From: Limnanthes douglasii subsp. nivea
Lineage: Eukaryota > Streptophyta > Magnoliopsida > Brassicales > Limnanthaceae
Direction: 5' to 3'
DNA length: 64,000 nt
NCBI GenBank assembly: GCA_036936605.1
Contig: JAUPFV010000005.1
Coordinates: forward strand, 56,192,742-56,256,741
A program made the position numbers and the translations under genes. Shown here one piece after another: positions 10,505 through 56,185 of this stretch. The first letter of the stretch is position 1, and every line of letters begins with the position of its first letter. The notes below the pieces were generated by a model. It was not told the origin of the DNA and made no database searches. It saw only the letters and a list, made by a program, of their open reading frames with translations.

Positions 10505-10680
10505 CTCGGTATGAGCTGGACGCACGATCGTGCGACCAGGATGATAGTTTGTCGCATATAACGAGGTTGGTAGTTTATTCGCATGCGACAGACATACTTA
10601 CCTTGTCGCATGTGACAGATAACTTAAGTTGTCTCATGCCACAAACATACTTAAGTTGTCTCATGCGACAGTTATACTTA
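10505..10680. repeat. GTCGC/GCGAC motif cluster upstream of the PMD gene
   Basis: About 175 bp contain at least seven copies or near-copies of a (T)GTCGCATGCGACA-type word: CGATCGTGCGACC, TTGTCGCATATAACG, TTCGCATGCGACAGACATAC, TTGTCGCATGTGACAG, TTGTCTCATGCCACAAACATAC and TTGTCTCATGCGACAG. Several are spaced about 30 bp apart and include TACTTA(A/C) linkers. The same word recurs in the array 3' of the gene, so the gene is bracketed by it. Confidence 0.75.
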
Positions 10681-10732: not shown

Positions 10733-12716
10733 ATGGATCGTATCAAGAGCACCGTGAAAAATTCGTTTAAGAAGGGGCAAGCACGGGTGCTCGAGGCGCG
10801 ATTGGCACGTGAGGCAGAGGAAGTTAATGTTTCCCCTGAGCATGTGGAGGCACATCCCACCGAGGGACAAACTCCTGGTACTCGGACGAAACGACACCTC
10901 CGTCGACATCCAAGTGACGATGAGATTCGTATGGTTGCCGGTAGCACCAGTCCAGGTTCGTCTTCGCATGCACCTGACCTTTTGTACGTTGATGGCGAAG
11001 CAGATGCACCGGATGGACCGGAGGATATGGAGGGGCCGGAGTGGTGGGAGGCACCGGAGGGATCACATGCACGTTATGAGGACGATGCAGACGCACCCGA
11101 GGCCGAGGATCACGAGTTCTTGTCGGTGATGCCACACGTCCCGACTCTCTATCTCGATTACTCCCAACACGAGGCGTTTAGTGTCTACCACGGAGATGTA
11201 AGTTTTAATTCTCTAACTTTAATATATAATTTATTTATTATTTTATCAGGAACTAACGTGTTTGATACATATTGCAGGATATGGTCTCCTTGCGAGGCTT
11301 CACCATGTACGATAGTCTTCGTAGATGGGACTTCCAAAAGCAGAGCAGGGTACGAGAGAAAGTGATGAAGACTATATTTGGCCCTCTCGACGACACACTC
11401 TTCCGCTGGCAGACCAACCTCCATTTGGTTGAGGCATTCCTCTAGCGATGGCATGAGGAGACTTCTTCATTTTATTTTTCGTTCGGAGAGATGACTGTGA
11501 CTTTGGATGACATCCACGTCATCACTGGATTATCGGTCACAGGTATGGATTTTGATGTATTAGCATTCGACTCCGAGATTGAGCGGAGCAAGACTTATGC
11601 TAGCATGCTAGGTGTACAACAAGTAGATTTGAATAAAAATCTTAGGAATGCTAGTAAGGTGAATCTTGGTTGGTTGCGCAATACATTTACGGGTGACAAA
11701 TATAGTGATAGTAAGATCACACATGAGAGAGTAGATCATGCCACCCGTGCCTACATAATATTCTTGTTAGGTACCATCATTTGTGCCAACAAAACCGGCA
11801 ATAACATTCCTGTAGATTACCTCCAGTTCATGAACCAGTACCAGGGTATGAATAGGTTCAATTGGGGTCAGTTGGTATTAGCATAGTTGTACAACTCCCT
11901 TAGTCAGGGATCTTTGCATGGTACGGGGGGCATTTGCGGGTTCATAGGGATGCTCGAGGCGTGGATATTTTCCCACTTCATTCACTTTTGGGCTCTAATG
12001 TTTAGCGATTTTCAGCTAGTTATGCCCCATATGTGCCGACATGCGCCACAAAAGATCGACATTTCACAGGATGTGTGTAGGGATTTGAGACATGCACTAT
12101 TGACGTACACGGAGTCATATTTAAGTAATATTTGTTAATTGTAACGTTACGCATTTTTACTAATATAATTGTCTAACTTGTTAACTTATTTATTTACAGG
12201 TCATTTTTCTTCCCTACATGTACGTACGGGACTATCATCCATCCGAGAACGTTAGTTGGGTTGAGTTGACGCTTAAGGAGTTCGAAATCATTATTCCATA
12301 CTAGTGTGATCGTGTCACTTGACAGATGGGCTTTACACAGCTCATTCCGAAAGATATACGTCCTCCTACATCCAAAAAAGCAGGAAAGAACACTGCTAAC
12401 AGATACGTTTGGGATACTCACTTGTGGCGGGATTGAGAGTACCATCGTTACATCCCAGTTGGACCGGCGTACCATGGTGGGGGAGAGAGTAGCGATGCGA
12501 TGTACTAAGTTTGGGTGAAGAAGAAGCTATGGTATATCGTCAGTAGCTCTGGTCCAGCTGGAGGTCATCAGCTGCAACCATAGGGTGGTGTTGACTACAC
12601 AGGATACGACCAGATCGCACAGTATGCTCCATCCATACTGACGCTGGAGTATGACGATCTATTACAGATCGCCCTTCACATGTGCAGGATTGTTGAGCGA
12701 TACAAACATCATTGAT
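10733..12716 (+). pseudogene. Plant mobile domain (PMD, MAIN/MAIL-type) gene of a transposon, broken
   Basis: Exon 1 (10733-11197) starts MDRIKSTVKNSFKKGQ and encodes an acidic, low-complexity leader. A GT-AG intron (11198-11277) follows. Exon 2 (11278-12124) encodes the plant mobile domain: FTMYDSLRRWDF, HLVEAFL, then the hallmark TVTLDDIHVITGLSVTG, NLGWLRNTF, RAYIIFLLGTIIC and WGQLVLA. Exon 3 (from 12200) continues with VIFLPYMYVRDY, then QMGFTQLIPKDIRPP, and ends in EYDDLLQIALHMCRIVERY. PMD proteins occur as silencing-related host proteins (MAIN, MAIL1) and as passengers in transposons. The motif clusters on both sides argue for a transposon gene here. In-frame stops at 11443-11445 (TAG), 11884-11886 (TAG, probably from Trp TGG) and 12302-12304 (TAG), plus others in exon 3, make it a pseudogene. 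Its orientation is convergent with the Ulp1-type gene at 14.7-18.3 kb. Confidence 0.8.
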
Positions 12717-13462: not shown

Positions 13463-13759
13463 ATAATCTTATTTTTTTGGCGTTGTTCGATTAATCTTTA
13501 TGTTTTTATGTTTTAATTTGTCTTTATGTCTCTATGTTTTTGCGTTTTTATCCATGTTTTTATGTTTTAATTAGTCTTTATGTTTCGTTACAATGTTGTT
13601 CAATTAATTAAGAGTCATATATTTTTAAAGTTCAAATGTCTCACTTTTTATGCATTTATATGTGCACATACTTTAATTAATCATCTCTAGTAGTGAAATT
13701 AAGGACAAAATTTAATAAAAAACAATACGAGTGAAATGTCCAAAAGACCATCGCAATAA

Positions 13760-14126
13760 GTCTGTGCGACGCAAGCTCTCTTTTTGAAAAAACACAACCA
13801 AATGATTTGCATTGCGTCGCACGCGACGTATTCAAAAGAGCATCGCAATTAGGCAGTGTGACGCAAGCTCTTTGTTTAACAAAGCACAACCAAATGGTTT
13901 GTCATGCGTCGCACGCGACATGTTTAAAAGAGCGTCGAAATAAGGCCATGTGACGCAAGCTCTCTTTCTGACAAAACACAGCCAAATGTTTTGCATTGTG
14001 TCGCATATGACGGATGAACACAAAGTCGCAATTAGGCCTTGCGACGCAAGCTCTCTGTATGACAAAACACTGTCAAATGTTTTGCCTTCTGTCGCATGCG
14101 ACTAGTACAACTTAGGGCCGCACGCG
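13760..14126. repeat. Four 92-bp tandem repeats carrying GTCGCACGCGAC motifs
   Basis: Units start at 13760, 13852, 13944 and 14035, giving periods of 92, 92 and 91 bp. Each holds, in order, 'GTGCGACGCAAGCTCTCTTT', 'AAACACAACCAAATG(G)TTTG', 'GCGTCGCACGCGAC' and 'AAAGAGC(A/G)TCGCAATTAGG'. The palindromic core GTCGCACGCGAC is the same word family as the cluster upstream of the PMD gene. Minus-strand frames through the array only reflect the repeat. Confidence 0.88.
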
Positions 14127-35997: not shown

Positions 35998-37043
35998 TTA
36001 AACCCTAAATCGGCTTGAAGGAAGGCAACCAATCAACTGCATGCAATCAATACTATCGATATAACCCAAACCAAGTCCTTCAAGAAAGACGATCGATAAC
36101 AGTTCATTAGGAGTAGAATTTTGGATGAATTCCTGAGTCTCATTACAGGAAAACATCCACTTCGCTATCCAGTCCGATGCTTGGTTCTGGATATGCGAGA
36201 TATGCTTAAACGACATCTTGGAGTGGAAGATTTTTTTGTAAATGTCGATGAGCGGCTCAGTATTCTAGTATTCATACTCTTTCGAGACCATGTTGACGAG
36301 CAGAAAGCTATCTGTTTCGACGTCAACATTCACCCAGCCTCTTCTGTAGCAAATCAGAAGACCTTCCATAAGGACACGAGTTTCAGCAAGCAGAGGATTC
36401 ATCCTGCCAAATTTAAATCCAGACCCAGTAACAATGTCCCCCTCACTGTTTCTGACAATGACGCCTCCAATCGTTTCACCGGTGTGCGAGTAAGCCTCGT
36501 TTACATTCGGCTTGAGTCGATCACTCTCAGGGGCCTTCATTTGAAGTAAGTTATTTTTTTCTTTCTGGACTCAATCGACTGACATCCCAAACTGATTCCT
36601 GCATTTAAGGAATTTGACCAGTGTTTACTGGTCAGGAAGTTAGAGTAGTCAATTCCTCTAATAACTTTAATTATCTTATCTATAGTATTTTGAACAGAAT
36701 CGTGGAAGCCTTTAAATTTGGGAGAGTTTCTACTCTTCCAAATGTACCAATAGATTATTTGAGGCACCATCTGAGTGATATGGAAATTATTGTTAGAGTG
36801 CCAAAACCACACTCTAATAATATGAGTGACAGTCATATAACACCATATTCTGATGTTAAATAAGAAACTGAAATAGTTCCAAATTTTCCAGGAATAGCAA
36901 CACTTCACAAAGAGATGATTCTTCTCTTCAGAACTGTTGCAGAACTGACACTTAGACACAATTACTAAATGTCTACGTCGTAAAACATCATTTGTGGAAA
37001 TAAAGTTATTAATAAGCTTCCAGCATAAAAAAGAATACTTCAT
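35998..37043 (-). pseudogene. LINE zinc-binding RVT C-terminus and RNase H
   Basis: 37043-36537 includes LINNFISTNDVLRRRHLVIV, SKCQFCNSSEEKNHLFVKCC (a CxxC...HxxxxC zinc-binding pattern) and WKIWNYF. 36540-35998 is RNase H: GETIGGVIVRNSEGDIVTG, AETRVLMEGLLICY (Glu), VNVDVETDSFLLVNMV (Asp), then a TAG at 36265-36267 (probably former Trp TGG), and after it in the same frame SFKHISHIQNQASDWIAKW and FLEGLGLGYI. Apart from that stop the RNase H frame is intact. Confidence 0.85.
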
Positions 37044-37413
37044 GGGGATTTTAATGCTCCAAATTTTCTGAAAAAGGCTAGAGTTATTATGCTTTATCCT
37101 AATTATATCCCAAGTTAATTTGGTATTGAATTTGAGATTAGTCGAAAGCTTCCAATTGATAATGTCTTATTTGTCAGTAATTTTGAGACTTTTAATCTGG
37201 TTTATTTTGTCACAGGAAAGAAAAGAATTGAGGCAAGCATAATCCCACTAGTTGTCCTTCCAAAAGGTCTTCACAGGAGCTTCAATGTACCAGTTATTTA
37301 TAGCAAAGGGAGTCCCATCATGCGAGTTATCGAGCCAGAAATCGACGTTACCCTTTCCCAACAGCCAACTGATGTTGGAATCAACAAGGTGTCTAATTTC
37401 AGTAAGTCTTTTT

Positions 37414-41615: not shown

Positions 41616-41720
41616 GGGAAATTGTATTTAAAGTACCCACTCAACTATTCAATTGTCATCTAGTACCCAAGGTTTGATCAATTGTTACTTAATATCCAAC
41701 TCAACTATCTAATTGTCACT
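41616..41720. repeat. Left terminal inverted repeat of the MULE
   Basis: It starts GGGAAATTG and pairs imperfectly with 53711-53811. The best block is TAAA(G)TACCCACTCAA(C/G)TAT. The G(G/A)GAAA start is usual for Mutator-type termini. Confidence 0.85.
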
Positions 41721-41764
41721 TACTACCTAATATTATTTTAATACCCTAACTACCCTTAACCCAC

Positions 41765-41772
41765 TATATAAG
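41765..41772 (+). promoter_or_regulatory. TATA box for the transposase, just inside the left TIR
   Basis: CTATATAAG lies about 150 bp inside the left end. The right end carries the mirror CTATATATAC at 53690-53697. A matching TATA at the same depth in each end fits inward-facing promoters in or next to the TIRs, as in Mutator. Confidence 0.55.
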
Positions 41773-42405
41773 CATAATTTTATGTTTTCTTTCTATTTTT
41801 TCTAGCTTTTTGAAGATTTGAATTTGTTAGCCGCTCTAACCACCTAACCCACGAACCACCACGAAGCACGGTTGAAAGCACAATTCCGATGATCGGAGTG
41901 TTCAGAAGGTCTATTTATTTATGTAGTTTGTGGTGTAAAATCTATCTAACCACTGTCTTCTACGTACAGGAACTGATCGTACTTTTACATTTCGCATGAT
42001 AGGATGCGAACTGTGTAGAACTCTAAAGTATTGCATTTTCAAACCAATATCAACACGTTTTTAGTTACCTTTACGTTTCGATGCTAGGATGCGAACTATA
42101 TGAAACTCTAAAGTATTGCTTTTTTAAACGAATACCATGAATGTTAGTTACTTTTACGTTTTGCATGCTAGGATGCGAACTGTCTAGAACTTTTTTTAGT
42201 ATTGTATTTCGAAACAAATATCATGACTTTTTTTTAGTTGATTTACAAACAACTCTCAGGAGAGGATGCGCATTGTACACAGTTCGCAACTTATAGATAT
42301 ACACAAATCGCAAGATAAGATGCGATATGTATGATGCAATAATAAATAGTTTGCACTTTATTTTTGGGATTAATAACTAATAGCTTGTTCGATGCAGGGT
42401 AAGGT

Positions 42406-45056
42406 ATGTCCAAATCACGAGTTTGTATTTTTAAATATGGTCACCAAACCGCAATTGTGCCTTTCACGGAGTTTGAAAGCTTTCAAAGTATCCAAGCTTA
42501 TGTGGAGAACACATGGGAAGAGCTTGTCACATGTGACTACCTAATTACCTACTCCTGCGGGGATCACAATAATTGTTTCTTTAATAACCATAAGGATTTT
42601 GTTGGCTTGGTGTTACATCTTGATTTGAAGCGTTTAAAACGTGTTAGTTTTCTCATAGAACAACACGTCTTCGATAAGGGTTCTGGTCATAAGTGTTCTG
42701 GTGAAAAAAGTTCTGGTGATAAGAGCTTTGGTGGTAAGGATTGTGGTGTAAAGCGTAAAAAGCGTAGCTTGAGTATGGGAGTACCATCTTATGATCAACT
42801 AGTTAGCGGGGAGAGTAGTAACGGTTTAGTTAATTTTGATCAGAGAAAAAAACAACTTGCTACTGCTGGTTGGGCTGATGCTATTACAGGAGTGGGTCAA
42901 GCTTTTGAAGAAGGTGCTGCAGGTCTCAGGTTATCTTTGTGCAAGTTTGCTTTAGAGCATGGTTTTGCTTTCAAATACCTGCACAACACAGCAACCAAGA
43001 TCACTGCTTATTGTGAAAATAAGTTCACAAGCGGGTGCAAATGGAGGCTTTATGCATCTATTGATTCCAGCACCGGCTTGATGATGATCAAGAAGTATGT
43101 TCCGCACCATACTTACAGTCCTGTTTTCTCCCAGAAGCATAAGCGGCACAAATATTTGACATCAGATTTGATTGCAGAGGAAATTCAGGATTCTCTCCGG
43201 ACCTGCCATTCGTTGACAGCCAAACCCATACAATCGACTGTCAAACAAGATTACGGTCTTGAAATCTCTTACCGTTTGTCATGGAATGCTTTAGAGAAGG
43301 CTAGGAGGGGAGTTTTCGGAGATAGTTCAAGTTCTTTTAGTTTACTAAGCGGATACTTCAAACGTTTGAAGAGCCGGGATATTACTTCAGACTGCCAGTT
43401 GGAGTTATCAGCTGGAAACCGTTTCAAACGTTATTTTATAGCATTCGATTCGTCCCTTCAGGGTTTTCATTCATGCCTTCCAATGTTGTTTGTCAATGGA
43501 ACCCACTTATATGGCAAGTATAAGGGTACCTTGCTTACTGACGTAGCAAAGGACGACAACAAGGGTTAGTTACATTTAACTAGTTAATCTGAATGTATTA
43601 TGATGTTTTGTTTGAAATTTTTGTGCAACAGTTCACATCCTATATTTGCACACCATTGTGATGAAATCTTGATATTTGAGAACGATTCGCATCCGAGGCT
43701 ACGAATAAGGTAGTGTTGTTTAGGTAATGACATTTCACAATAGAGGATGCGAATTAGGCGATGAAATTTTGGGCGACAGTTCGCATCCTTTATATGCACA
43801 CCATTGTTGTTGAAATCCTGATATTTCAGGACGATTCGTATTCGAGGCTGCGAATTGATCAGTGTTTGAAACTGTGATTAATTCGCAGCTTATGCTTGGA
43901 CACAATTCGCAGCGTGCATTTTGAGAGCAACTCTCAGGACAACATGCGAACTATTTACATTTTTTAAACGTTTGAGTACTGTTGTAGTGTTCATTTGATC
44001 TACCTTTTTCCAAGACTATTCCCTGTTGCTGTTGGTATAGTTAGCATTGAAGATTGGGACAATTGGATGTGGTTTTTAGGGTGTTTGAAACCATATTTGT
44101 TGGATCGCCAGATCACATTTATTTCAAACCGTCATTCTGGTATCGTTAATGCTGTTTCTGTTTTGTATCCAAACTGCTATCATACGTACTGTTATTTCCA
44201 TCTCATGCAGAATCTGAAAGCAAAACTGGACCATACTAACAGAGACTATAAAAAAAAGATGCTGAGTTTCTTCCATCGTCTTGCTTATGCTCCCTGTCGA
44301 GAGATTTTTAAAGATATACTAATAGTTTTTCTATGTGAAGGTGGTGACAGAATGAGTGATTTTCTTGCAACTTTACCCCCGGAAAAGTATGCGCAGGCTT
44401 ACGTAAAAGGGAAACGATACGGCTCTATGGCTTCTACTGCAGCAGAATCGTTTAACAATCAGATCAAAAAATATTGTGGCCTACCGATTGTTGAGTTTAT
44501 TGACTGGATTAAAGTCTTGCTTATAAATCAAGTTTCACGAAGATACGAAGAGGGTCTCAGCTGGAGTACTTATTTGGTCCCCGAGTATGAGAAGAAGCTA
44601 AAGCAGAATGTTTACATGTGCCGAAATTGGGTAGTAAGTAAGTCATCATTCGCAATGTTTGAAGGCTTTTCAAATCCTGTGGCTGTTGTTAATCTGTTGG
44701 ATTTCATATGTTCTTGCGGATCATGGCAACAAGAGTGTTTTCCATGTCCTCACGCTTTAGCGGCAATACAGTATACTGACCAAGATCCCTTTACCGTAAT
44801 AGAGCCCTTCTTTACGGTTAAGAATTACGGGGAAAGTTACTCTTTCAGCATACCAGCTATAACAGATTTCGGGGAAGGGTCCAGCGCTAACGATCCTTCG
44901 TTTGTTGAAGTTCTGCCTCCGAACGTTAAGAAACGCTCCCGAAGGCTTAAGAAAAAACGAATCCCATCTAGAGGAGAAATCTCAACCAAGCAGTTGAGGT
45001 GTGGCCGTTGTTCGAAATCAGACCATAATAGGAGGACTTGTGATGTTCCAGTTTAA
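42406..45056 (+). pseudogene. MULE (MuDR-type) transposase, two exons, catalytically dead
   Basis: Exon 1 (ATG 42406 to about 43564, about 386 codons) has an N-terminal domain (VCIFKYGHQTAIVPFTEFES), a Gly/Ser/Lys linker and a MuDR-type DNA-binding domain (FALEHGFAFKYLHN, CENKFTSGCKWRLYASI, HHTYSPVF). It then starts the MULE catalytic domain (LPMLFVNGTHLYGKYKGTLL). Exon 2 (about 44015-45056) continues LFPVAVGIVSIEDWDNWMWF, ITFISNRHSGIVNAV, NCYHTYCYFHLMQNL (C..H motif) and STAAESFNNQIKKY (Glu). It has a SWIM zinc finger (CSCGSWQQECFPCPHAL) and a C-terminal zinc knuckle (CGRCSKSDHNRRTC). The first catalytic Asp (normally VDGTHL) is Asn at 43495-43497 and the second (normally SDRH) is Asn at 44127-44129. 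With the obvious GT (43565) and AG (44013-44014) the exon phases do not join. It cannot be an active transposase, though both long frames are still open. Confidence 0.9.
43565..44014 (+). other. Transposase intron, motif-rich
   Basis: About 450 bp separate the two catalytic-domain exons. The donor candidate is AAGG|GTTAGT and the acceptor candidate is TTTTTCCAAG|ACTATTCC. Joining them leaves the reading frame one base short, as if a G had been lost from the G run at the donor. The intron holds nine or so TTCGCA/TGCGAA words. Confidence 0.6.
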
Positions 45057-45808
45057 GCACAATTTTTTTACAGTTGTTTGTTCATGTACACATTTTTTTT
45101 TTGTTTTTATTACAGTAAAGGAATGCTAAGTGTTTTGAGTTGCATGCAACTCACATCTAGTATTGCGAATTGTGTACAATATGTTGATATCATGTTGCAA
45201 ACATCTATCAGGGTTCCATGCAATTTGTGTGAAATTTCACCAGGATGCGTATCGTTAGTAAAATCATATCAAACAACTATCAGTATTTATGCTGCGAATT
45301 GTGTTGAGCTCTAACGTAATGCTTTTTCAAACAAATATCAGGACTCTTATTTGCTTACGATTCGCATGCTATGTTGCGAATTATGACCAGAACAAGACTT
45401 TTTACTTAACTACAGATCGCATGGTATGCTGCGAATTATGACCAGAACAGATATCAGGACTTCTGGCTGCTTGTGTAAAGAGATATGATGCAAATGGAGA
45501 ACAACCAGAAGTCTTGATATTTGCTCACATGCTAAGCTGCAAAACGTGCTTTCATTAAAATACCAGGACTTTCAGTGGGTTGCAAATCGCATGGTATGCT
45601 GCGAATTGCATGGAAATCAGTAATATTGATAAACAAGTAATATATCAGGTTACAATGCGAATTATTTGCAAGTGGTAATTGGATGCGAATCGTATATATT
45701 GATAAACAAGTAATATTCATGCACTAACAATTGTTCACACAAATCACTACAACGTATTAGTGTTTGTTAGTTCCATTCCAAAAAAGCAAACAACAAAAGC
45801 TAACTCTA

Positions 45809-47064
45809 TCAATCATCAATAGAGGATTCTTCACCATCTTTCTCCTCTGCGTGCTGATCATCAACCTTTTCATTTTCCTCTTCCTCTTTGTTATCTACGT
45901 CCATCATGTATACATTTTTTGTCTTTGATGGACCGACTTCGCCGTCCCTCTTCCTTTTGTTGTTTGGAACCTCTACCGTCTGAGGTGGAACCTCTGCTGG
46001 CTGAGGTATTGTTAGGTGCGACCAAAAGTCCCACATCCCACATCGGTTAAACATAGGAAGAAAGATCAGTATATAAGTTAAGAATACATCTCCATTAGTG
46101 TGAGGCCTTTTGGAAGTGGACCAAAAGCAAAGTCGTGCGGGCCAGTGGGCCCAAAGCGGACAATATCACACTATTGTGGAGATCAGAGTATTCTTACTTA
46201 TATACAAAAGCGGAATATACTGACTCAATATTCCCTACAAATGGTATCAGAGCACCAGGCCCAGACAGAATCTTGCCAGGAGTTATACTCAAGGTGATGG
46301 TGATTGATCTGCTGGATAGATGGAGCGCCAGATGGCTCATCAAGCAGGTGGCTTGATCAAGGAGCGACGCAGATTCATCTATAGATGAAGTACCTGGATA
46401 GCTCATCAAGCAGGTGGCTTGATCAAGGAGCGGCATAGTGTCATCTGATAGTGAGCAGATAGATTCGCCTTAAAACGCTCTAGAGTTCAGGTATCTCTCC
46501 ACCTGAATAGGGTAGGCAGATGGAAGTCAATTGAGAGGAGGCTAGAGTGGTACTTTGTTCGAGATGAGGATTGTTAGGTGCGACCAAAAGTCCCACATCC
46601 CACATTGGTTAAACATGGGAAGAAAGATCAGTATATAAGTTAAGAATACATCTCCATTAGTGTGAGGCCTTTTGGAAGTGGACCAAAAGCAAAGTCGTGC
46701 GGGCCAGTGGGCCCAAAGCGGACAATATCACACTATTGTGGAGATCGGAGTATTCTTACTTATATACAAAAGCGGAATATACTGACCCAATATTCCCTAC
46801 AGGTATAACAGCAACCATTGGAACCTCTTCTGGCTGAGGTTCATCAGCAACCATTGGAACCACTTCCATTAGTTGAGAGTCAACAGAGAAATAGTCATCA
46901 TATATGTTTAAATGTAGGACATATACTGAGCTGTTTGGTGGTGCTGCTGGAATGATCAAGTCATCACTCTAGTTAACGGTTAAGGATGACCAGGAGTCAC
47001 CTAGAGAACCAAGTGAACCAGAGTATGAGTATGTGGTGGTGGTTGTGGTGGTAGAAAAAGACAT
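45809..47064 (-). pseudogene. Third MULE gene: small acidic protein, split by a TRIM
   Basis: Minus-strand ATG at 47062-47064. The N-terminus is a Thr/Ser/Tyr-rich MSFSTTTTTTTYSYSG. An in-frame TAG stands at 46969-46971 (probably former CAG). The frame then runs PAAPPNSSVYVLHLNIYDDY and short repeats of the (E/Q)VVPMVADEPQPEEVPMVA type. At this point the 792-bp TRIM interrupts it. Past the TRIM the same frame continues with a QPAEVPPQTVEVP repeat, a basic NNKRKRDGEVGPSKTK (possible nuclear signal) and a very acidic end (DNKEEEENEKVDD...), with TGA at 45809-45811. Leaving out the TRIM and one 5-bp duplication gives exactly 153 codons including the stop, so the gene was in frame at this point before insertion. 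It lies tail-on between transposase and protease genes. I do not recognise the protein. Confidence 0.62.
46005..46806. mobile_element. TRIM (miniature LTR retrotransposon), 792 bp
   Basis: Two 230-bp LTRs (46010-46239 and 46572-46801), each TGTTAGG...CCCTACA, differ by four transitions only. The 5-bp duplication GGTAT stands at 46005-46009 and 46802-46806. The internal 332 bp start two bases after the LTR with the initiator-tRNA-Met primer-binding site TGGTATCAGAGC (46242-46253) and end with a purine-rich GAGATGAGGA (46561-46570). There is no coding capacity. The LTR start GACCAAAAGTCCCACATCCC has the TCCCACAT wording common in plant TRIMs. The internal part holds a 34-bp direct repeat (copies begin near 46332 and 46397). 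It is inserted in the third MULE gene, with its own strand (+) opposite to that gene. Confidence 0.95.
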
Positions 47065-47706
47065 GACTGTTTGAATTTAGAGAACAAGAGGTGTTTTAAA
47101 AAAAATATAGAGTTTGTTTTAAAATTAGCCTCTGGTTACTAGTGTTATTTATAGGGAAAGGAGGAAGTCTGAGCTTATGAGGTGGTATGGCTATATTAAT
47201 CATTACATAGCCTCCATGTCCAATCAGCAATTAATGGGCTCTGGACCTCTAGTGATTAGATTGTTTTTTGCGTGCTCAATGCTGGTTAACGTTTACCAAG
47301 GCATACAATATAGCATGTTCGTATTCTTGAACGATATATTTTGAATTATTTATTTTATACCAGACGTTGATGCGAACTGTTTGTTAATGTGATATACCAG
47401 GAGTTGCTACGAACTGTTTAGTGATAATTAAGCATCTATCAGGTTAGGATGCAAATTGTTTGGTGAGGATCCTCTTTTAAGATATACCAAGGATTGTTGC
47501 GAAATATTTTGGTGGGAATTGTTCGAATATTAACTAACCATTATATATCAGCTTATCATGCGACCTATTTGATAATAAATATGGGAATTGCACATTTCTG
47601 AAATTTGAAAAAGTCTATGTACAGCAAAAAATACTGTAAATGTATGCACACCAAAAAATTACAATCAATGTATTTACACCAAAAAACCATAATATTTTAC
47701 TTCGAA

Positions 47707-48563
47707 TCACCCGTACTTCACGGCTTCTCTGTCATTTAAGAAAAAATCAAACATTTTTGCTCTGAAGGCAGTGACCATATCTTCAGCGTATTTTGTCTGC
47801 ACATATCCATGATGGATAATATCTCTGGCGTATTTGACGACAAAAATACCACAGTCCAGGGTGCCACGTTTTTGTTGTGGAATTTTTCTTTCATTTTTCA
47901 CCTTCCACCCTGTCTTTGAAGTAGGTAGGAATCTTTTATCCAGTAAATAGTTGATCTTGTTATAATAATTAGTGTTAGGAATAACCACAAAAACTTAAAT
48001 AGTTGTTGTCACACAATTCGCATCGTAGGCTGCGATTTGTGTGACAACCAATCCAACATGTACATGTCAAGCGATTCGCAACCTAGGGTGCGAATTGTTT
48101 GGTATCTAATCTATTTTGTCTGCAAGCATTTCGCAGCCTATTTTTCGAAATATGCATCATCCAAAACGATTCGCATCCTAGGTTGTGAAGTCTTTTATGG
48201 ATACACTGCGAACTGCAACTGATTTGCTCACATTTCACAGCATATCTCGATCACAGTTCGCAACATGTATTGAATATGCATAATTAAAAATGTGTTTAAA
48301 CGTATGTGAATAGCTGGGAATATTACCAGTTTGATAGGTGTCCTTGTGGTGTGGTCTATCGCATTCAGTTTAGACAGAAGTGGGTTGTACTTTGTTATCG
48401 ACCTGCCGTCGACGTCAATGATGAGCAACGTCCAATGGTTTATCTGGTCCTTTGTCTCGATGCATATTGGAATGATGATGATGATGGGGTTTTCGGACTC
48501 TTTGCTAAAAGCTACGTCCACCAATTTTGTTACTTTCCAGCCTGATTCAAATTGATGATGCAT
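47707..48563 (-). other. Ulp1 peptidase C48 catalytic exons
   Basis: These two exons are separated by a motif-rich intron (about 47990-48240). The first carries VTKLVDVAFSKESENPII, then HWTLLIIDVDGRSITKYNPL. The second carries WKVKNERKIPQQKRGTLDCG, with Gln and Cys in the usual Q...DCG arrangement, and ends REAVKYG before a TGA at 47707-47709. His, Gln and Cys of the catalytic set are kept; only the Asp is replaced by Asn. Confidence 0.8.
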
Positions 48564-49789
48564 CCAAGATAGAGTACATTACGATGAGAACATTTTATGA
48601 AACTTTGAAATTTACCTTAGCTAAACTTACCGTAGTCATGCCCGAAATCATTACGGTGTCATGTGACACTCCTTCAACTTTTTGGCATGGAACTTTGAAG
48701 TCTGCTTCTTCAAGCATCTTTCGAATCCAACTGTCCACAACCTAAGAAAGGAGTTGTTTATTTATGTTAAATATACAAGACCTGTTTGAAACATTAAAAA
48801 GAGAATTGGTTGACAATTGGATACCTTTACGTCCAGTTCCAATTCTAAAGATAGCGCCATCGCATCACTCTTTTGCACTCTAATTCCGTATGTAAATTTG
48901 GACTATGGTAACTGCCATACGACTGGATCAGGGGTGTCACTCTCGTAGGCTTTAACTAACTGTATTTTGTGGTATTCTCCGACATCGATACGGTCAGTTA
49001 CTTTTGTTTTCTTTGGCCAGTCGTTGTAGTTTACTTTTGGCGGTTCCCGTTCTTTTATAATTATCTCTTCCTCCTCCTCTTCTACTGGAGGCTGTGTTGG
49101 TGTCAGTAGATTAAAATTTGGCTCCTCTGTCTCTTTACTTGACTCGAGCTAAATAACAAAAATCAAAAGAGTGTGTCTGTCATTATATTTTTAACGATCC
49201 CAAACAGCTCGCATGCTAACATACGAACTGTTTGGTTCTAGCTGAATACATTTCAGAGTATCTATCAGGATAGCATGTGAACTGTTCGAGGTTCCACTAA
49301 ACAGTTCGTATGCTACCCTGATATGTAACATTTAAAAGAGATCCATAGCCCTTACCACATGGTCAGCGACAACCAATGCTGTTGACTTGTTCGGCATAGG
49401 ATTTGGATCGTGTTGGCAGAGATCATTAAAGTCATCCTCCGACATGTTCTCCAAAGACCTTTGTATTACACAATCGTAATATACATTATCAATTTCATTT
49501 AAAAATATCTGTGAAACTTGAGTATAAATACCATCAACAAAAGCATCAGGTAAACCTACTGTGTTATAGTTTGACTCTGGAGCTTGCAGTTGATTTGTTA
49601 CTGGTGCTACAATTTCACGTTGGCTTAGCAATTCTGACTTTGCGCACACCACCGTTGGTCTTTGAGGTGCATCTCCATATGTGGTGTTGTCTTCTAAGGA
49701 TGGTCCTTCCTGGCTGAGTAGTTCCATCTTCTCACAGAGATGGACATGTTCTGACTCTTGCGGGGCTATCTCTTGTGTTAGCCTTTCTC

Positions 49790-50055
49790 TCTTTGCCAAG
49801 GTTATTTGTTGTTGCTGTTGTTGTTCATGTTGTTCTTGTTGCTGTTGTTGTTGAAATTGTTGCTGTTGCTGTTGTTGTTGTTGTTGGTGTTGTTGTTGTT
49901 GTTGGTATTGTTGTTGGTGTTGAACTTGTTGTTGTTGCTGGTGTTCGTGTTGAACTTGTTGTTGCTGTTGTTGTTGTTGGTTTGGTTGTTGTTGTTGTTG
50001 TTGGTGGTGTTGAACTTGTTGTTGTTGCTGCTATTGTTGTTGTTGTCTGTCAGTC
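49790..50055 (-). repeat. CAA/CAG repeat coding a polyglutamine tract
   Basis: About 250 bp of (TTG/CTG)n on the plus strand encode, in the frame of the downstream protease exon, roughly 80 residues of Gln with interspersed His, Val and Glu. The frame reaches ITLAKRERLTQEIAP directly. One codon in the tract is TAG (50031-50033) between CAA and CAG codons, probably a former CAG. The plus-strand Val/Leu-rich ORFs here are shadows of the repeat. Confidence 0.85.
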
Positions 50056-53000
50056 TCCTATTTCATACAAATTCCAATATAAAAAGGTGGAAGGGTTAAG
50101 CATACTATAATCATAGTTGCGAACGATTCGCATGCTGACCTGATATTTGTTTGGTCCATCTCAAACAAATCACAGCTCAGCATGTGAATTGTAAAATAAC
50201 CAACCAACTAGAGTAAAACACAATTCGCAATATACGATGCGAATTGTTCGGCCATGACTACACAACAATCCTGATATTTGTTTGATATCATCATATCACG
50301 TGATGCATTGTTTGAATATGTATTCAACTAGAAAACCCCGCTGACAGTTTTAAATAGATACACTGACTTTGTTTGAATATTTATACAACAGTAAATATTA
50401 TTATAGAAACAGTTTCATCACAACAAATAAATAAGATATTTGAATCTTAGTGAATTTTTGATCCACTTACATCTTCTAGGCTGTCTGGTTCTGCCACTTC
50501 TTTCTCACGATCTTCTGTCTCCTTTGCATGTGAAGTACGAGTTGTTTGTCATTCAGAGAAGACTCATTTTTTTCTTTCTCCGTCTGTGTCTCTGTGGTGT
50601 CCATCTCTGTGGACACCAACAAATATTCTTGCATCCTTGCAGATGGTACCGATATGGGTGAATGGTTCCCATCATCATCCCTCTCTTCTGGAAGTACTCC
50701 ATCAGCATCGTGCTGATCAACATCAGACACAGATGCCTGCAATTCAGTGGATGCTGCTCTATCTGGAAATGCTGGTACCTTCTCAACTACTGGGCTTCCA
50801 ATCTGGAAAATTGGCTGAGATATAGCATTGTGGAGTTGTTGTGCTTCAAGATCCGCTATCTTCCGTTTCAATTCTTCTAGCTGAAAAAATGATAGTAGAC
50901 GTTTTATAAACATATTAAGTGCTGATTATAGAGATTATTTAAGGCTCATTTTATACTTACTTCTCTGGCATGTTTTTCTATCTTTCTCTCGTACTTGTTC
51001 TTGTCGGCATATGTCTTCAAACGCTTTGATTCAGCAACAATTGCAGACTTATTTGGAGTAGGTGCTCTGCGTTTGAGGACAAAATTACCGGTTGTTTCAC
51101 TCATACTGTTTGTGCCCTCGTCGTCAGGCTCCTGCCTGGATGTACCGATCGGTTGTGGTGGAACCGTTTGCTTGGGGAGTCTTGGTGGTGGAATCGTTGG
51201 CTTGGGGAGTCTTGGTTGTTCGGGTCTGGGAGATATCACCTAATTCGTTTCTTTCTGTTTTTGTGATGCTCGTCTCCTTGGTTTTGGGGTTGTGCTTTTC
51301 TTCCTCTTCCTTGGTCTTTCTTTCGGTGAAATAGATTCCTCATCTGCATCTCCACTATCTACTCGTTTTCTGAAATCTTCGCTTTATGCCTCGGTAAGTT
51401 GTAGTGGACCTTCGCAAACCTACCAACAGAGGCACATGTAAGTAAATAGATGCAAGCGAGTTGTTTTGAAAGTATGAGGGTGTAGACAAACAAATTGGTT
51501 TTTACAAACAGTTCGCATTATATGATACGAATTATGTGAAATTCCATCCATGTTAGATTGCAAACAACTCACATGCTGAGCTGCGAATTGTGTGTAAACA
51601 ATATGCTGCGAACTGTGGGGAAACAATGAGCTGCGAACTCAGTATTCATCTCAGGCTGCGAAATGATTGATACATTGTTCTAATATAACACCAATCAAAA
51701 CGCATGACATGCTGCGAACTGTTTGCAACCCCAATTCAATATCTATATAAAGCTCATACCTGATAATCTTTCAGGTTGGGTATTTTAATAAGCAGCGCCA
51801 CGATTGTTGCTTGGCACTCTAATCCCAACCATTTGAAAAACCTTGGTATCAAGGTTGGCTTCGCTACCTCGAGGCCGATTGTTGTGTGGTCCATGAAGAA
51901 AAGCTGCATGGGGACAAGTTTTATCATCAAGATACTCTGTACATAACTAATTTTTATACTGAATAGATCAATCTTACAATTAGAAGGGCGACGCAGCCGA
52001 CGAATCTATCAGGTTTTTCGATTGCTAAGCAACTCATGATAGACTTTCGAAGCTTGTACAGTATTGATCCAGACCAGTCGTAATTGTTTATTTTGCTGAG
52101 GTCAGCAACATAATAAACCGTGCTCCAACCCAGGATATCTCAAGATACGGAGTAGAATAGGGTGGAGCACAAAAACAGTATCAACAGCCTCGCAACGTCT
52201 TCCAACTCATGCTCCCCCCCTTCGCTTATGGCTTTTTCTATACCTGCATGTAAAACCAACGACAACAGGCTATGTTAGAAAATTACATCATCCTTCTTTA
52301 TAAGATGAAGTCGATTTTACACAGACCTTTATAATGGCATTCGCTATTGTTTTAGTATTAGTCGGTGCTACTTTCCTGCCAATTTTACCCATGAAGTATT
52401 TCTTCATCATCCTCGATTCGTCCTCCTCGTCGGGCGCGTATTTGTTGTGAAATGCTCCGGTTTTCGTTAACCGCATTTTCTCCGTGCCATGCTTCATTCC
52501 GAATATGACCTTCACATCGTCTTCGGTTAGCTTTACAAACTTTGAGCCAATATGGAAGGCGTCTCTATCAACAGAGAACCTCTCAACAAGATACTGAATG
52601 ATCGAGTAGAATTTATTCTTTGGTAGCTCTGCCTCATTATGGATGTTGAAATCCATTTTCAAAAGCATGTAGAAGGGTGTGTTTCTTGCAGCTTCAATGT
52701 GGGCACATGTAATACGGTTCTCTTTAAGAAACTTCAGAAGGATCACCAACCCTGATCTGTAATAGCTTGGTTTTGTTGTCATACTTCATGCACAAACACA
52801 AATCAGTTGGAGTGTCACACACGTCGCATCACAAGCTGCGAACTTCATATGCATCAATTAAAGTGTCACATGATTCGCATGACAAGCTGCGAATTTCCTA
52901 TATATCAGTAAAGTATTTACAAGCAATTCGCAGGCTGGCCTGCCAATTGTTTGTAAATACAAGCTGCGAAATGCATGGCATAAACATTCAATCAAGCTGC

Positions 53001-53689
53001 GAATTGCTAATATAAACCAATATCCAGCTCCGAATTGTTTGCATACTAGGTGATGAAGATGCGAACTGTACTACGGCGCACACGTCCAGCCTGCGAACTG
53101 TTCTATTTTTTACATGAACGTTGCAGGGAACTGGGAAATATCGAAACAACACCAAAATCAACAATCAACTACCTAATGCACATCTAACATACATCATAGT
53201 TCTCAGGAAAGTGTTAACATTACATGCAACCAAACTTCTACCCTGCGTTCGACGATAAACCCAGAAACTGACAAACTATCGTCACTAAATACTTCATTCC
53301 GGTATAAAAAGCAACGCCGATCGTGAAATAACAGAAAATAGTGGTTCGAAGTCATCAAAAATGCAAAAAAATACACTTTCCACGATAATGCTTACATGTT
53401 TACTTCTAAACACTGTACTATTCACCGGTCGGAGACGACTTGACAACAAATTTGTCGAACAGAAGGTGGTTACTCGTTGAACTGAGTAAAAGACGACGAC
53501 CAGTGCGATTGCGTTGAAGGTGCGAACGACGACTGATTTCGAACGGTGAGAAGCTGTAGGGGTTTTGGGTTCGTGAGAGAGAGTATCACGAAGTCGAACG
53601 GTTTCTGGTGGTTTCTAAAATTAGACGTGTTTGGGTTTGTTTAGGGTGATGGGAAGTGAGAAAAAAGTGGATATGAAGTGAAAAATGGG

Positions 53690-53697
53690 TATATATA
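53690..53697 (-). promoter_or_regulatory. TATA box for the protease gene, near the right TIR
   Basis: The minus strand reads GACTATATATACCC about 115-120 bp inside the right end, mirroring the left TATA. The first recognised protease exon starts about 900 bp further on, so a leader with introns is likely. That leader (52790-53110) is motif-rich. Confidence 0.5.
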
Positions 53698-53710
53698 GTC
53701 GATGGGTAAT

Positions 53711-53811
53711 TTTGTCCAATTTTTTACTCGAGGGACTAAATAACACTATCCAAAATTTGGATACTACTGGGTAATTAGATACTTGAGTGGGTATTTACCG
53801 GTAGTTTTCTC
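53711..53811. repeat. Right terminal inverted repeat of the MULE
   Basis: Pairs with 41616-41720 as described there. It is closer in sequence to the isolated MULE end at 19534 (GAGAAAACTA..GG.AAATAC) than to its own left end. Confidence 0.85.
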
Positions 53812-54549: not shown

Positions 54550-54761
54550 GTAACTTCTAAGTTTCTTCTATCTATCTCAATAACTTTAGGTTATGGTATC
54601 TACCTTCATACGTTTAAATTATCTCTTCATTCACTTAATGCAAAAACAGAGCAACTTATTTCCAAAAACAGAGCTACTTAAAGGTTTTAGACTCTGTGTT
54701 TCAATTTATTTTCTTTTCGTTTGGTGGGTATCTTATAGGAGATAATGTTTCTTATATTCAG
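54550..54761 (+). other. Putative 5'-UTR intron of the FAF-like gene
   Basis: The donor TTTCAG|GTAACT and acceptor TATATTCAG|GGTACT enclose 212 AT-rich bases just upstream of the start codon. Leader introns of this size are common in plant genes. This is inferred from splice-site wording only. Confidence 0.5.
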
Positions 54762-54802
54762 GGTACTTTTATTGTGACCGAACCTTCCTTTTGATCCAAA
54801 AC

Positions 54803-56185
54803 ATGTCTGGTTATGTGAACAAGGGTTTTGTGTTATCTTCGTCTGTAAAGATGGAGGAGGAAGAGAAAATGGCTATGGAAAAACAGGGGATGGTCTCCAT
54901 ACTTGTACCTGATTCGAACCAGTCACCTACTGGAACAGCAGTCTCACTAAGAAGGACTTTATCAGCTGACATGTCTTCAAAAAAATGGATGTCTCGGAAT
55001 GATTTCTCTCCCATGAAGAAGATTGTTCCTTCTGAAGAATCTAAGGTTGAAGACAGTGGATCCAAATCAAGCCTCGAAATCTGGGACATTATTCAAGAAG
55101 ACAAGAACAAGAAGAACAGAGACCTTGATCGTCCAGCGCAACTTGATATATGGAGTTGTATTCTGTCCAATAAGAAACAAGAAGAGGACACTACTATTTA
55201 TGTTCCTCCTCCGGTCGTTAAGAGAGCAAGTTCGTTGAACGAGAAAAGTCTCCAAATATGCACTGAGAGCCTTGGATCCGAGACTGGGTCTGAAGGGTTC
55301 ACGTCGTACCCGCATGCGGATGTAGAGGAAGAAAAAGAAGTCGACCACGAAGCACATAAGCAATACGAAGAAATTGCGAAACAGAATTACTTGGCTGTCA
55401 AGAAAACTACTACTCAACGGTCTTTCCCTCCAGCGATACCTTCTCTTTCGGGTCAAGATGGAGGTTCTTTGAAAATGAGGACTTGTCGTGACAACGGACG
55501 GTTCGTTCTGGAAGCTGTTTCCGTCCCTTCGCAAAACAATTTCCGCGCTCAACGCCAAGATGGTCGCCTTGTTCTAACATTTACTGAGTCGGATGTTCAA
55601 GATCAGGAAGAGGAAGAGAAGGAAGAACAAAAAACCAATGTTCTAGATGAGCTAGAGGAGGAGTTCGAGAGTTTCGAAGAAGAGAGAACAAGCGAGGACG
55701 AAGACGAAGAAAACGAAGAAAAAGAAACAAAAGAAGATTACTATCTTCAAATGCATCGACCAACAAAGTTAACAAATGGTTCCATAAACGTCCACCGATT
55801 AGCCTTATTAACCAAAAAGCCTATCCAGGTACCTTACAATTTCAACAAGACCGTAAAAGAATGCGACACCGACCTTATAGAGATCGTAGAATCGCCAACT
55901 CTCGCAATATCTCTGCCACCACGGTCGCAAATGGTTAAGTTGATGGATAACACACCACCAGTCATCACCACCGTAGGAAGCTTCAACGCTTACGATTACT
56001 ACTGGAGGCCGAAGTCAATGATGATCCCTAGTAAAACCTTCCAATTCACAACCCTTAAGAACAACAATAACGGCAATAAGGAGGAGCCAGAAGAGCTGAT
56101 AGTGTCAAGGGTGCCTTTTGTGAAAGGTTGCAATGAGCAAAGGAGGTCACTTTTGTTTTGGGAACCATATTGCATTGCCACTTGA
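54803..56185 (+). CDS. FANTASTIC FOUR (FAF)-like protein, 460 residues
   Basis: A single open exon from ATG 54803 (MSGYVNKGFVLSSSVKMEEE) to TGA. An upstream in-frame TTG at 54791 is not a likely start. The FAF domain lies at about residues 204-257: RSFPPAIPSLSGQDGGSLKM, RDNGRFVLEAVSVPSQNN and FRAQRQDGRLVLTF. N-terminal of it are LEIWDIIQ and LDIWSCILSNKK, short motifs shared by FAF-like members. After it comes a very acidic, Glu-rich stretch (about residues 262-310), then a less conserved C-terminus. FAF proteins are plant-specific; the Arabidopsis FAF1-4 proteins act in shoot meristem size control through the WUSCHEL/CLAVATA circuit. The longer 'FAF-like, chloroplastic' group, which this length and motif set fit best, has no settled role. 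Frame, start and domain are intact and codon use differs from the decayed transposons around it, so I take it as a working host gene. Confidence 0.92.
   Translation: MSGYVNKGFVLSSSVKMEEEEKMAMEKQGMVSILVPDSNQSPTGTAVSLRRTLSADMSSKKWMSRNDFSPMKKIVPSEESKVEDSGSKSSLEIWDIIQEDKNKKNRDLDRPAQLDIWSCILSNKKQEEDTTIYVPPPVVKRASSLNEKSLQICTESLGSETGSEGFTSYPHADVEEEKEVDHEAHKQYEEIAKQNYLAVKKTTTQRSFPPAIPSLSGQDGGSLKMRTCRDNGRFVLEAVSVPSQNNFRAQRQDGRLVLTFTESDVQDQEEEEKEEQKTNVLDELEEEFESFEEERTSEDEDEENEEKETKEDYYLQMHRPTKLTNGSINVHRLALLTKKPIQVPYNFNKTVKECDTDLIEIVESPTLAISLPPRSQMVKLMDNTPPVITTVGSFNAYDYYWRPKSMMIPSKTFQFTTLKNNNNGNKEEPEELIVSRVPFVKGCNEQRRSLLFWEPYCIAT

Follow-up and report, generated by a model that had tools for sequence, protein, structure and literature searches.

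How might a large DNA transposon mark its own non-coding DNA, and for which protein? The question is raised by a 64-kb stretch of the Limnanthes douglasii subsp. nivea genome (contig JAUPFV010000005.1; the whole stretch is referred to here as the window), which contains a 12.2-kb Mutator-like element (MULE) in which the word TTCGCA and its complement TGCGAA occur many times outside the exons. In our analysis these words are parts of a repeat unit, a palindrome of ~30 bp of the form AACAATTCGCA-N8-TGCGAATTGTT with a rigid 8-bp spacer. The units form an array of fixed geometry, this array is present across the family of the MULE, and the cores of its half-sites diverge more slowly than the linkers between units. 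The sequence data give good support to a self-specific, constrained, non-coding candidate binding array that marks one MULE family.

The word and the palindrome

The preliminary description of this DNA held that TTCGCA/TGCGAA saturates the non-coding DNA of the MULE and is nearly missing just outside its target site duplications (TSDs), and both statements are borne out by the counts. The words occur 65 times in the window, 50 times within the MULE and 49 times within 41980-53115. With a hand-made exon mask, 48 lie in the 5415 nt of non-coding element DNA (8.86/kb), compared with 15 in the 51,803 nt of the window flanks (0.29/kb), so the density in the element is far above that of the background. 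Few had been said to lie in exons, and the two found in 5990 nt (0.33/kb) agree with this, but 2.5 are expected there, so the exons are at the level of chance and are not depleted. This indicates that non-coding DNA has gained the word, and not that exons have lost it. No 6-mer is more enriched in the non-coding element than TTCGCA/TGCGAA (48 vs 2.8 expected, -log10 P 40.7), whereas the top 6-mer in each of eight flank segments of equal size reaches a -log10 P of at most 8.0. The observed/expected ratio of CpG is 1.49 in the motif and 0.68 outside it, which may merely reflect the CG of the motif itself.

The arrangement of the words is more informative than their number. When inverted partners of the 48 non-coding sites were sought at each offset between 6 and 35, 22 had a partner matching at 5/6 or better at a start offset of 14 bp upstream, while every other upstream offset gave at most one such site; five of the 48 sites also have a near-match partner 9 bp downstream. 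There are 17 distinct dyads made of one exact arm and a partner of 5/6 or better (binomial P 1e-29), and the first unit set has the consensus AACAATTCGCATCCTAGGATGCGAATTGTT. The inverted pairs noticed at first sight are therefore real, but the arms are 10-13 bp and not 6-7 bp, and the loop of 6-8 nt is a spacer of 8 bp. A half-site model identifies 42 units in the non-coding DNA of the element, of which 36 have the canonical 8-bp spacer; it places none in the exons and three weak ones in 51.8 kb of flank. Because the units were chosen by a score model, the conservation of their columns is partly by construction, and the offset, the spacing, the divergence and the genome-wide counts are more independent tests.

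In some units the standard arm is paired, in unchanged register, with an arm of another type, TATCA or TACCA. The words TATCAGG/CCTGATA (including those at 43817, 45336, 45452, 50270 and 51759) number 12 in the element vs 6 in the flanks and are partly alternative arms of dyads, partly free within linkers. The stronger arm of a unit is on the plus strand in 25 cases and on the minus strand in 10, with 7 equal (P 0.017), a weak bias; the exact words are oriented 31 vs 19 (P 0.12). Within a unit, the two arms form 7.50 Watson-Crick pairs out of 13, compared with 7.51 +/- 0.20 when arms of other units are paired in shuffles. As there is no covariation between arms, they look like protein half-sites and not like hairpins; each arm seems to be kept to the consensus independently, as two half-sites for a protein would be.

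Presence across the family and divergence of the units

With the second transposase exon as query, at least 40 matches were scored in the 1.78-Gb host genome, 39 of them besides the window copy, at 93-94% identity. We took 15 of the 39 listed copies, and eight with both ends and full length were used for unit counts; the others (c1, c5, c7, c8, c9, c14 and c15) are truncated, rearranged or short, or their ends were not both found, and these stayed in the divergence counts where they aligned. The motif is found in all eight full-length copies, which have 40-49 units each at a stricter threshold (40 in the window copy), and there are no units in ~25 kb of their flanks, where the bare 6-mer occurs 0 to 1.4 times per kb. 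Perfect 9-bp TSDs are present in the relatives c4, c13 and c15. The transposase-leader array differs in size among the nine copies counted: the window copy has 4 units and the relatives have 6-10, with 10 in c11.

The perfect 28-bp dyad ACAATTCGCA-N8-TGCGAATTGT occurs 2530 times genome-wide. The form with a 9-bp spacer occurs 22 times and that with a 7-bp spacer twice, and a backwards control dyad is not found at any of the three spacer lengths; these counts cover one spelling of the dyad. In 50 listed perfect-dyad sites there are 26 different spacers (hand count), which indicates that the letters of the spacer drift while its length is kept. All nine of the loci taken around perfect dyads (L048-L056) align to the MULE, some at 75-80%; these are early sites on one contig, four from the search and five chosen by hand, and are not a random sample. 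At G000:C1:24599148-24601089, which is partly in L056, three perfect dyads lie exactly 957 bp apart, which suggests an internal tandem duplication of 957 bp in this relative.

A distant transposase query brings up numerous further MULE transposases in the host genome. For two of these, the downstream 2 kb contains 0 and 1 TGCGAA and no comparable motif. Two of the distant transposase matches fall in the part of contig C1 for which dyads are listed, and no listed perfect dyad lies within 250 kb of either; this comparison is weak because the one close family copy there, C1:21874826, likewise has none within 150 kb.

The units also differ from their surroundings in how fast they change. Among the 15 copies, 170 of 5013 cells (3.4%) in non-CpG cores differ from the family majority, compared with 899 of 15,172 (5.9%) in linkers, a ratio of 0.57 (bootstrap 0.44-0.72), and the cores are lower for all four bases. 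In the nine distant loci, with the ascertained perfect dyads masked, 43 of 546 core cells and 409 of 2470 linker cells differ, which gives a ratio of 0.48 (0.36-0.60), the cores being lower in eight of the nine. Before masking, divergence in these loci is 7.7% in cores, 15.6% in linkers and 9.1% in coding DNA; in L048 alone it is 6%, 23% and 14%, respectively. Divergence per position is negatively correlated with information content (Spearman -0.40, P 0.037, 28 positions, with base composition left in). A self-specific recognition system had been proposed from the window sequence, and what stands of that proposal is a self-specific, constrained non-coding array, seen in the 2530 dyads, the nine of nine loci that belong to the family and the conserved cores.

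The element and the possible binders of the array

The element is flanked on both sides by the 9-bp TSD TTAATTTTA, the match extending across the next G, and has degenerate terminal inverted repeats (TIRs) whose alignment has a local score of 56, vs a maximum of 46 in 300 shuffles, over a span of ~90 bp. The transposase has Pfam matches above cut-off to PF03108, PF10551, PF00872 and PF04434 (DBD, MULE and SWIM domains), is 30% identical to an olive MULE transposase, and matched 10 plant proteins among 7992 candidates scored. With these domains and the 9-bp TSD we assign the element to the MULEs. A second large gene, antisense to the transposase as in KIU-carrying MULEs, has an Ulp1 (C48) domain (PF02902, E 1.9e-10) on its joined C-terminal exons. 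Its product includes a basic stretch and a polyglutamine (polyQ) tract, and its exons hold a 30-bp coding tandem repeat; protein searches with this product gave no matches, and the predicted structure of its first exon is unusable (mean pLDDT, a per-residue confidence score, of 38). A small acidic open reading frame (ORF) between the two genes has no Pfam family above cut-off and is interrupted by a nested element similar to a terminal-repeat retrotransposon in miniature (TRIM). The long terminal repeats of this insert are identical at 227 of 231 aligned positions, its 792 nt contain no TTCGCA/TGCGAA, and it is missing from seven of ten compared copies, which align straight through the insertion site. 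A search of viral contigs gave no match. Exon borders were placed by hand from reading frames and splice signals, without transcripts. The features are as follows.

41616..53811, no strand: the MULE, 12,196 bp, with degenerate TIRs, its ends and TSD taken from the sequence
42407..45056, plus strand: transposase, exons ~42407-43566 and 44017-45056
45811..47066, minus strand: small acidic ORF, read from ORF translations and interrupted by the TRIM-like insert
46014..46805, no strand: nested TRIM-like element, within the small ORF of the window copy
47710..52779, minus strand: Ulp1-carrying gene, ~10 exons with hand-set frames, in-frame stops in the window copy
41986..42331, no strand: dyad array in the transposase leader, 5 units (4 at the stricter threshold)
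43681..43955, no strand: dyad array in the transposase intron, 6 units
45145..45694, no strand: dyad array 3' of the transposase, 9 units
47389..47569, no strand: dyad array in the spacer between the small ORF and the Ulp1 gene, 4 units
48012..48194, no strand: dyad array in an Ulp1-gene intron, 4 units
49203..49329, no strand: dyad array in an Ulp1-gene intron, 3 units
50122..50248, no strand: dyad array in an Ulp1-gene intron, 3 units
51507..51723, no strand: dyad array in an Ulp1-gene intron, 4 units
52818..53102, no strand: dyad array in the Ulp1-gene leader, 4 units and single half-sites

The words were said to occupy leaders, introns and spacers, and units are indeed present in all nine non-coding blocks longer than 200 bp, with 3-9 in each; the six blocks shorter than 100 bp have none. 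Of the 41 intervals between neighbouring units, 13 measure 51-58 bp, vs 3.7 expected, and none of 5000 random placements within blocks reaches 13. Helical phasing at 10.5 bp has a value of 0.25, from 70 distances that are not independent. The outer 370 bp on the left and 709 bp on the right, TIRs included, have no units and one lone word, at 53521. In En/Spm (CACTA) elements the TnpA protein binds subterminal repeats, many short sites that are linked to demethylation; unlike those sites, the dyads described here are internal and none is at the ends.

We propose that the dispersed AACAATTCGCA-N8-TGCGAATTGTT palindromes are binding sites for a DNA-binding dimer that the family itself encodes, most likely as the product of the Ulp1-carrying minus-strand gene. 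With many sites in long introns, leaders and spacers, such a factor could coat and recognise its own family only, and once bound it might strip silencing marks, as VANC and KIU proteins do on VANDAL elements. By analogy with those proteins an anti-silencing role for the array is plausible, and we put the probability of this reading, a family-encoded dimer with a VANC/KIU-like function, at about 0.5. From the array and its setting we infer three things: a binder encoded by the element, its identity with the Ulp1 protein, and anti-silencing as the result.

Several observations weigh against this proposal. Pfam reported neither DUF1985 nor DUF287, the domains of VANC proteins, in the joined exons of the Ulp1 gene from the window copy and two relatives, a test limited by broken genes and hand-joined exons; only DUF3867 was reported, below its cut-off. 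A single-sequence hhalign comparison of the N-terminal part of the Ulp1-gene product with pieces of the plant mobile domain (PMD) was no better than shuffles. In-frame stops interrupt the gene in the window copy, and all 13 copies in which more than one exon was aligned have either stops or frame gaps (with hand-set exon frames). The units do not share the single orientation of VANC21 motifs, being palindromic and with a weak bias. As to constraint, in L053 the cores (17 positions) diverge faster than the linkers, and the whole 30-bp dyad, at 845 of 13,822 cells (6.1%), is not slower than the linkers (5.6%): the spacer and the outer positions are the most variable, and slower divergence is restricted to the half-site cores. 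Finally, CpG decay in the copies is 10.7% in the motif, vs 10.6% and 10.3% for other CpGs, and in the nine distant loci 14.3% vs 13.3%. The motif CpGs decay like other CpGs and so are not kept unmethylated in these copies; we therefore reject protection of these CpGs from decay. The decay would be in keeping with a methylated motif in these copies and does not speak for local hypomethylation at present.

The array might instead be bound by the transposase of the element, through its DBD_Tnp_Mut and SWIM domains, much as TnpA occupies its sites in En/Spm, for transposition, demethylation or both. The presence of the DBD_Tnp_Mut domain accords with this, as does the hypomethylation of MuDR TIRs induced by MURA, which is cited in PMC10398659. 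The zone in which a MULE transposase would be expected to bind is, however, the unit-free outer DNA, and the units are in deep introns, up to ~6 kb from either end, so that we regard binding by the transposase as unlikely. Nor do we favour sites for a host transcription factor that would serve the element as promoter or enhancer, which seems a shade less likely still. Two arrays lie in the leaders of both main genes, where such sites could be placed, but others occupy long introns and 3' regions, and all nine perfect-dyad loci, a small sample, belong to the MULE family, which is unlike a site shared with the host.

A functionless minisatellite that grew by unequal crossing over and slippage would need no binder at all. 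Tandem duplication on a local scale has contributed to the array (85 bp x3 in the leader, 148 bp x2, 51 bp x2 and 25 bp x2.4), and 29 of 3444 linker comparisons are above threshold (3.4 by chance), some of them between blocks. But the units occupy nine separate blocks and are not a single tandem array, most linkers from different blocks look random while the dyads remain (partly by construction of the unit set), the cores diverge at 0.5-0.6 times the linker rate, and the length of the spacer is constant while its letters vary. We consider this origin improbable. Hairpins, whether in RNA or as cruciform DNA, could be imagined for units that are palindromic and often intronic, with a part in splicing or small-RNA production, for example, but a hairpin function is rejected as very improbable, as arm pairing equals that of the shuffles and units mixing TTCGCA-type with TATCA or TACCA arms cannot fold into a good hairpin.

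Known systems and the meaning of the array

If a family-encoded factor does bind the dyads, the closest parallels are in the VANDAL elements of Arabidopsis; statements on the papers cited here refer to the portions of their text that were available. The targets of VANC21 and VANC6 lie in non-coding repeats that expand and contract, those of VANC21 being arrayed in a single orientation, and VANC proteins carry variable regions with repeats (Hosaka 2017, PMC5735166); both proteins are also described in Sasaki 2023. Like VANDAL21/VANC21 and VANDAL6/VANC6 (PMC5735166), the Limnanthes MULE has a short family-enriched motif that is dense in its own non-coding DNA, at background level or absent in exons and outside the element, and present in repeats that expand and contract between copies; the change from 4 to 10 units in the leader, together with the local duplications, resembles the turnover of VANC targets. 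The polyQ tract and coding repeat of the Ulp1-gene product likewise resemble the variable repeats of VANC proteins. The differences are that VANC motifs are YAGTATTAY and AGTTGTCC/AGTTGTAC, whereas the Limnanthes motif is a palindrome with a fixed 8-bp spacer, that VANC has DUF1985/DUF287, whereas the Limnanthes MULE has Ulp1 and neither domain was found, and that VANDALs are without TIRs or have degenerate ones, the Limnanthes MULE having degenerate TIRs.

KIU (Kaonashi) genes, which are VANC genes that carry Ulp1, recognise non-coding motifs of KIU-carrying VANDALs and hypomethylate these elements (2026 review, PMC13317346). The Limnanthes element shares with them an Ulp1 gene antisense to the transposase and, as the review describes them, family-specific non-coding motifs, but KIU elements are non-TIR MULEs. 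TIR-bearing MULEs with an Ulp1 region, which may run with or against the transposase, are known from melon and grapevine (PMC2528002); these share TIRs and Ulp1 with the Limnanthes MULE, and the available text of that paper mentions no non-coding array. Brassicaceae MULEs of the VANDAL clade with TIRs and accessory PMD/DUF genes (PMC6446971) are also similar, and here too the text available mentions no motif array. The preliminary description knew of no self-recognition in a TIR-bearing, Ulp1-carrying MULE. This has to be narrowed: self-recognition by Ulp1-carrying VANDALs (PMC13317346) and Ulp1 in TIR-MULEs (PMC2528002) are already described. What is new is the palindromic array with a rigid spacer in a TIR-MULE, on which searches of the open-access literature listed no paper; a literature search with the motif words gave no relevant title among the matches listed.

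Elsewhere in the window, at 10579-10680 and 13741-14102, is a second set of TCGCA-type palindromes, TGTCGCATGCGACA, in tandems of 27 bp x3.8 and 92 bp x3.9. It flanks both sides of a Plant mobile domain ORF at 11446-11883 (PF10536, E 1.7e-24; DUF1985 E 4e-4, below cut-off), and the most enriched 6-mer of 9.0-15.5 kb is GTCGCA (-log10 P 7.7). This region is possibly another element with its own motif. A FANTASTIC FOUR-type ORF (54746-56185, PF11250, E 3.6e-19) is ~1 kb beyond the right end of the MULE, and a reverse-transcriptase zinc-binding fragment at 36537-37166 (PF13966, E 9.6e-17) is probably a remnant similar to a long interspersed nuclear element.

Self-specific anti-silencing targets have so far been demonstrated in Arabidopsis VANDALs. 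The Limnanthes MULE adds an abundant family in a 1.78-Gb plant genome with an apparent target array, in which the geometry is unusually clear and signs of selection can be read from sequence, and its palindrome with a fixed spacer makes an exact prediction, that of a dimer on two half-sites. A more specific and doubtful idea is that this TIR-MULE family, with its 40 or more close copies, has built an anti-silencing code from rigid 30-bp palindromes read by a dimer whose domain is neither DUF1985 nor DUF287; were this true, self-recognition would have arisen, or been re-engineered, outside the known VANC fold. If the array does act in anti-silencing, such systems would work in TIR-MULEs and may help to explain the abundance of this large element.

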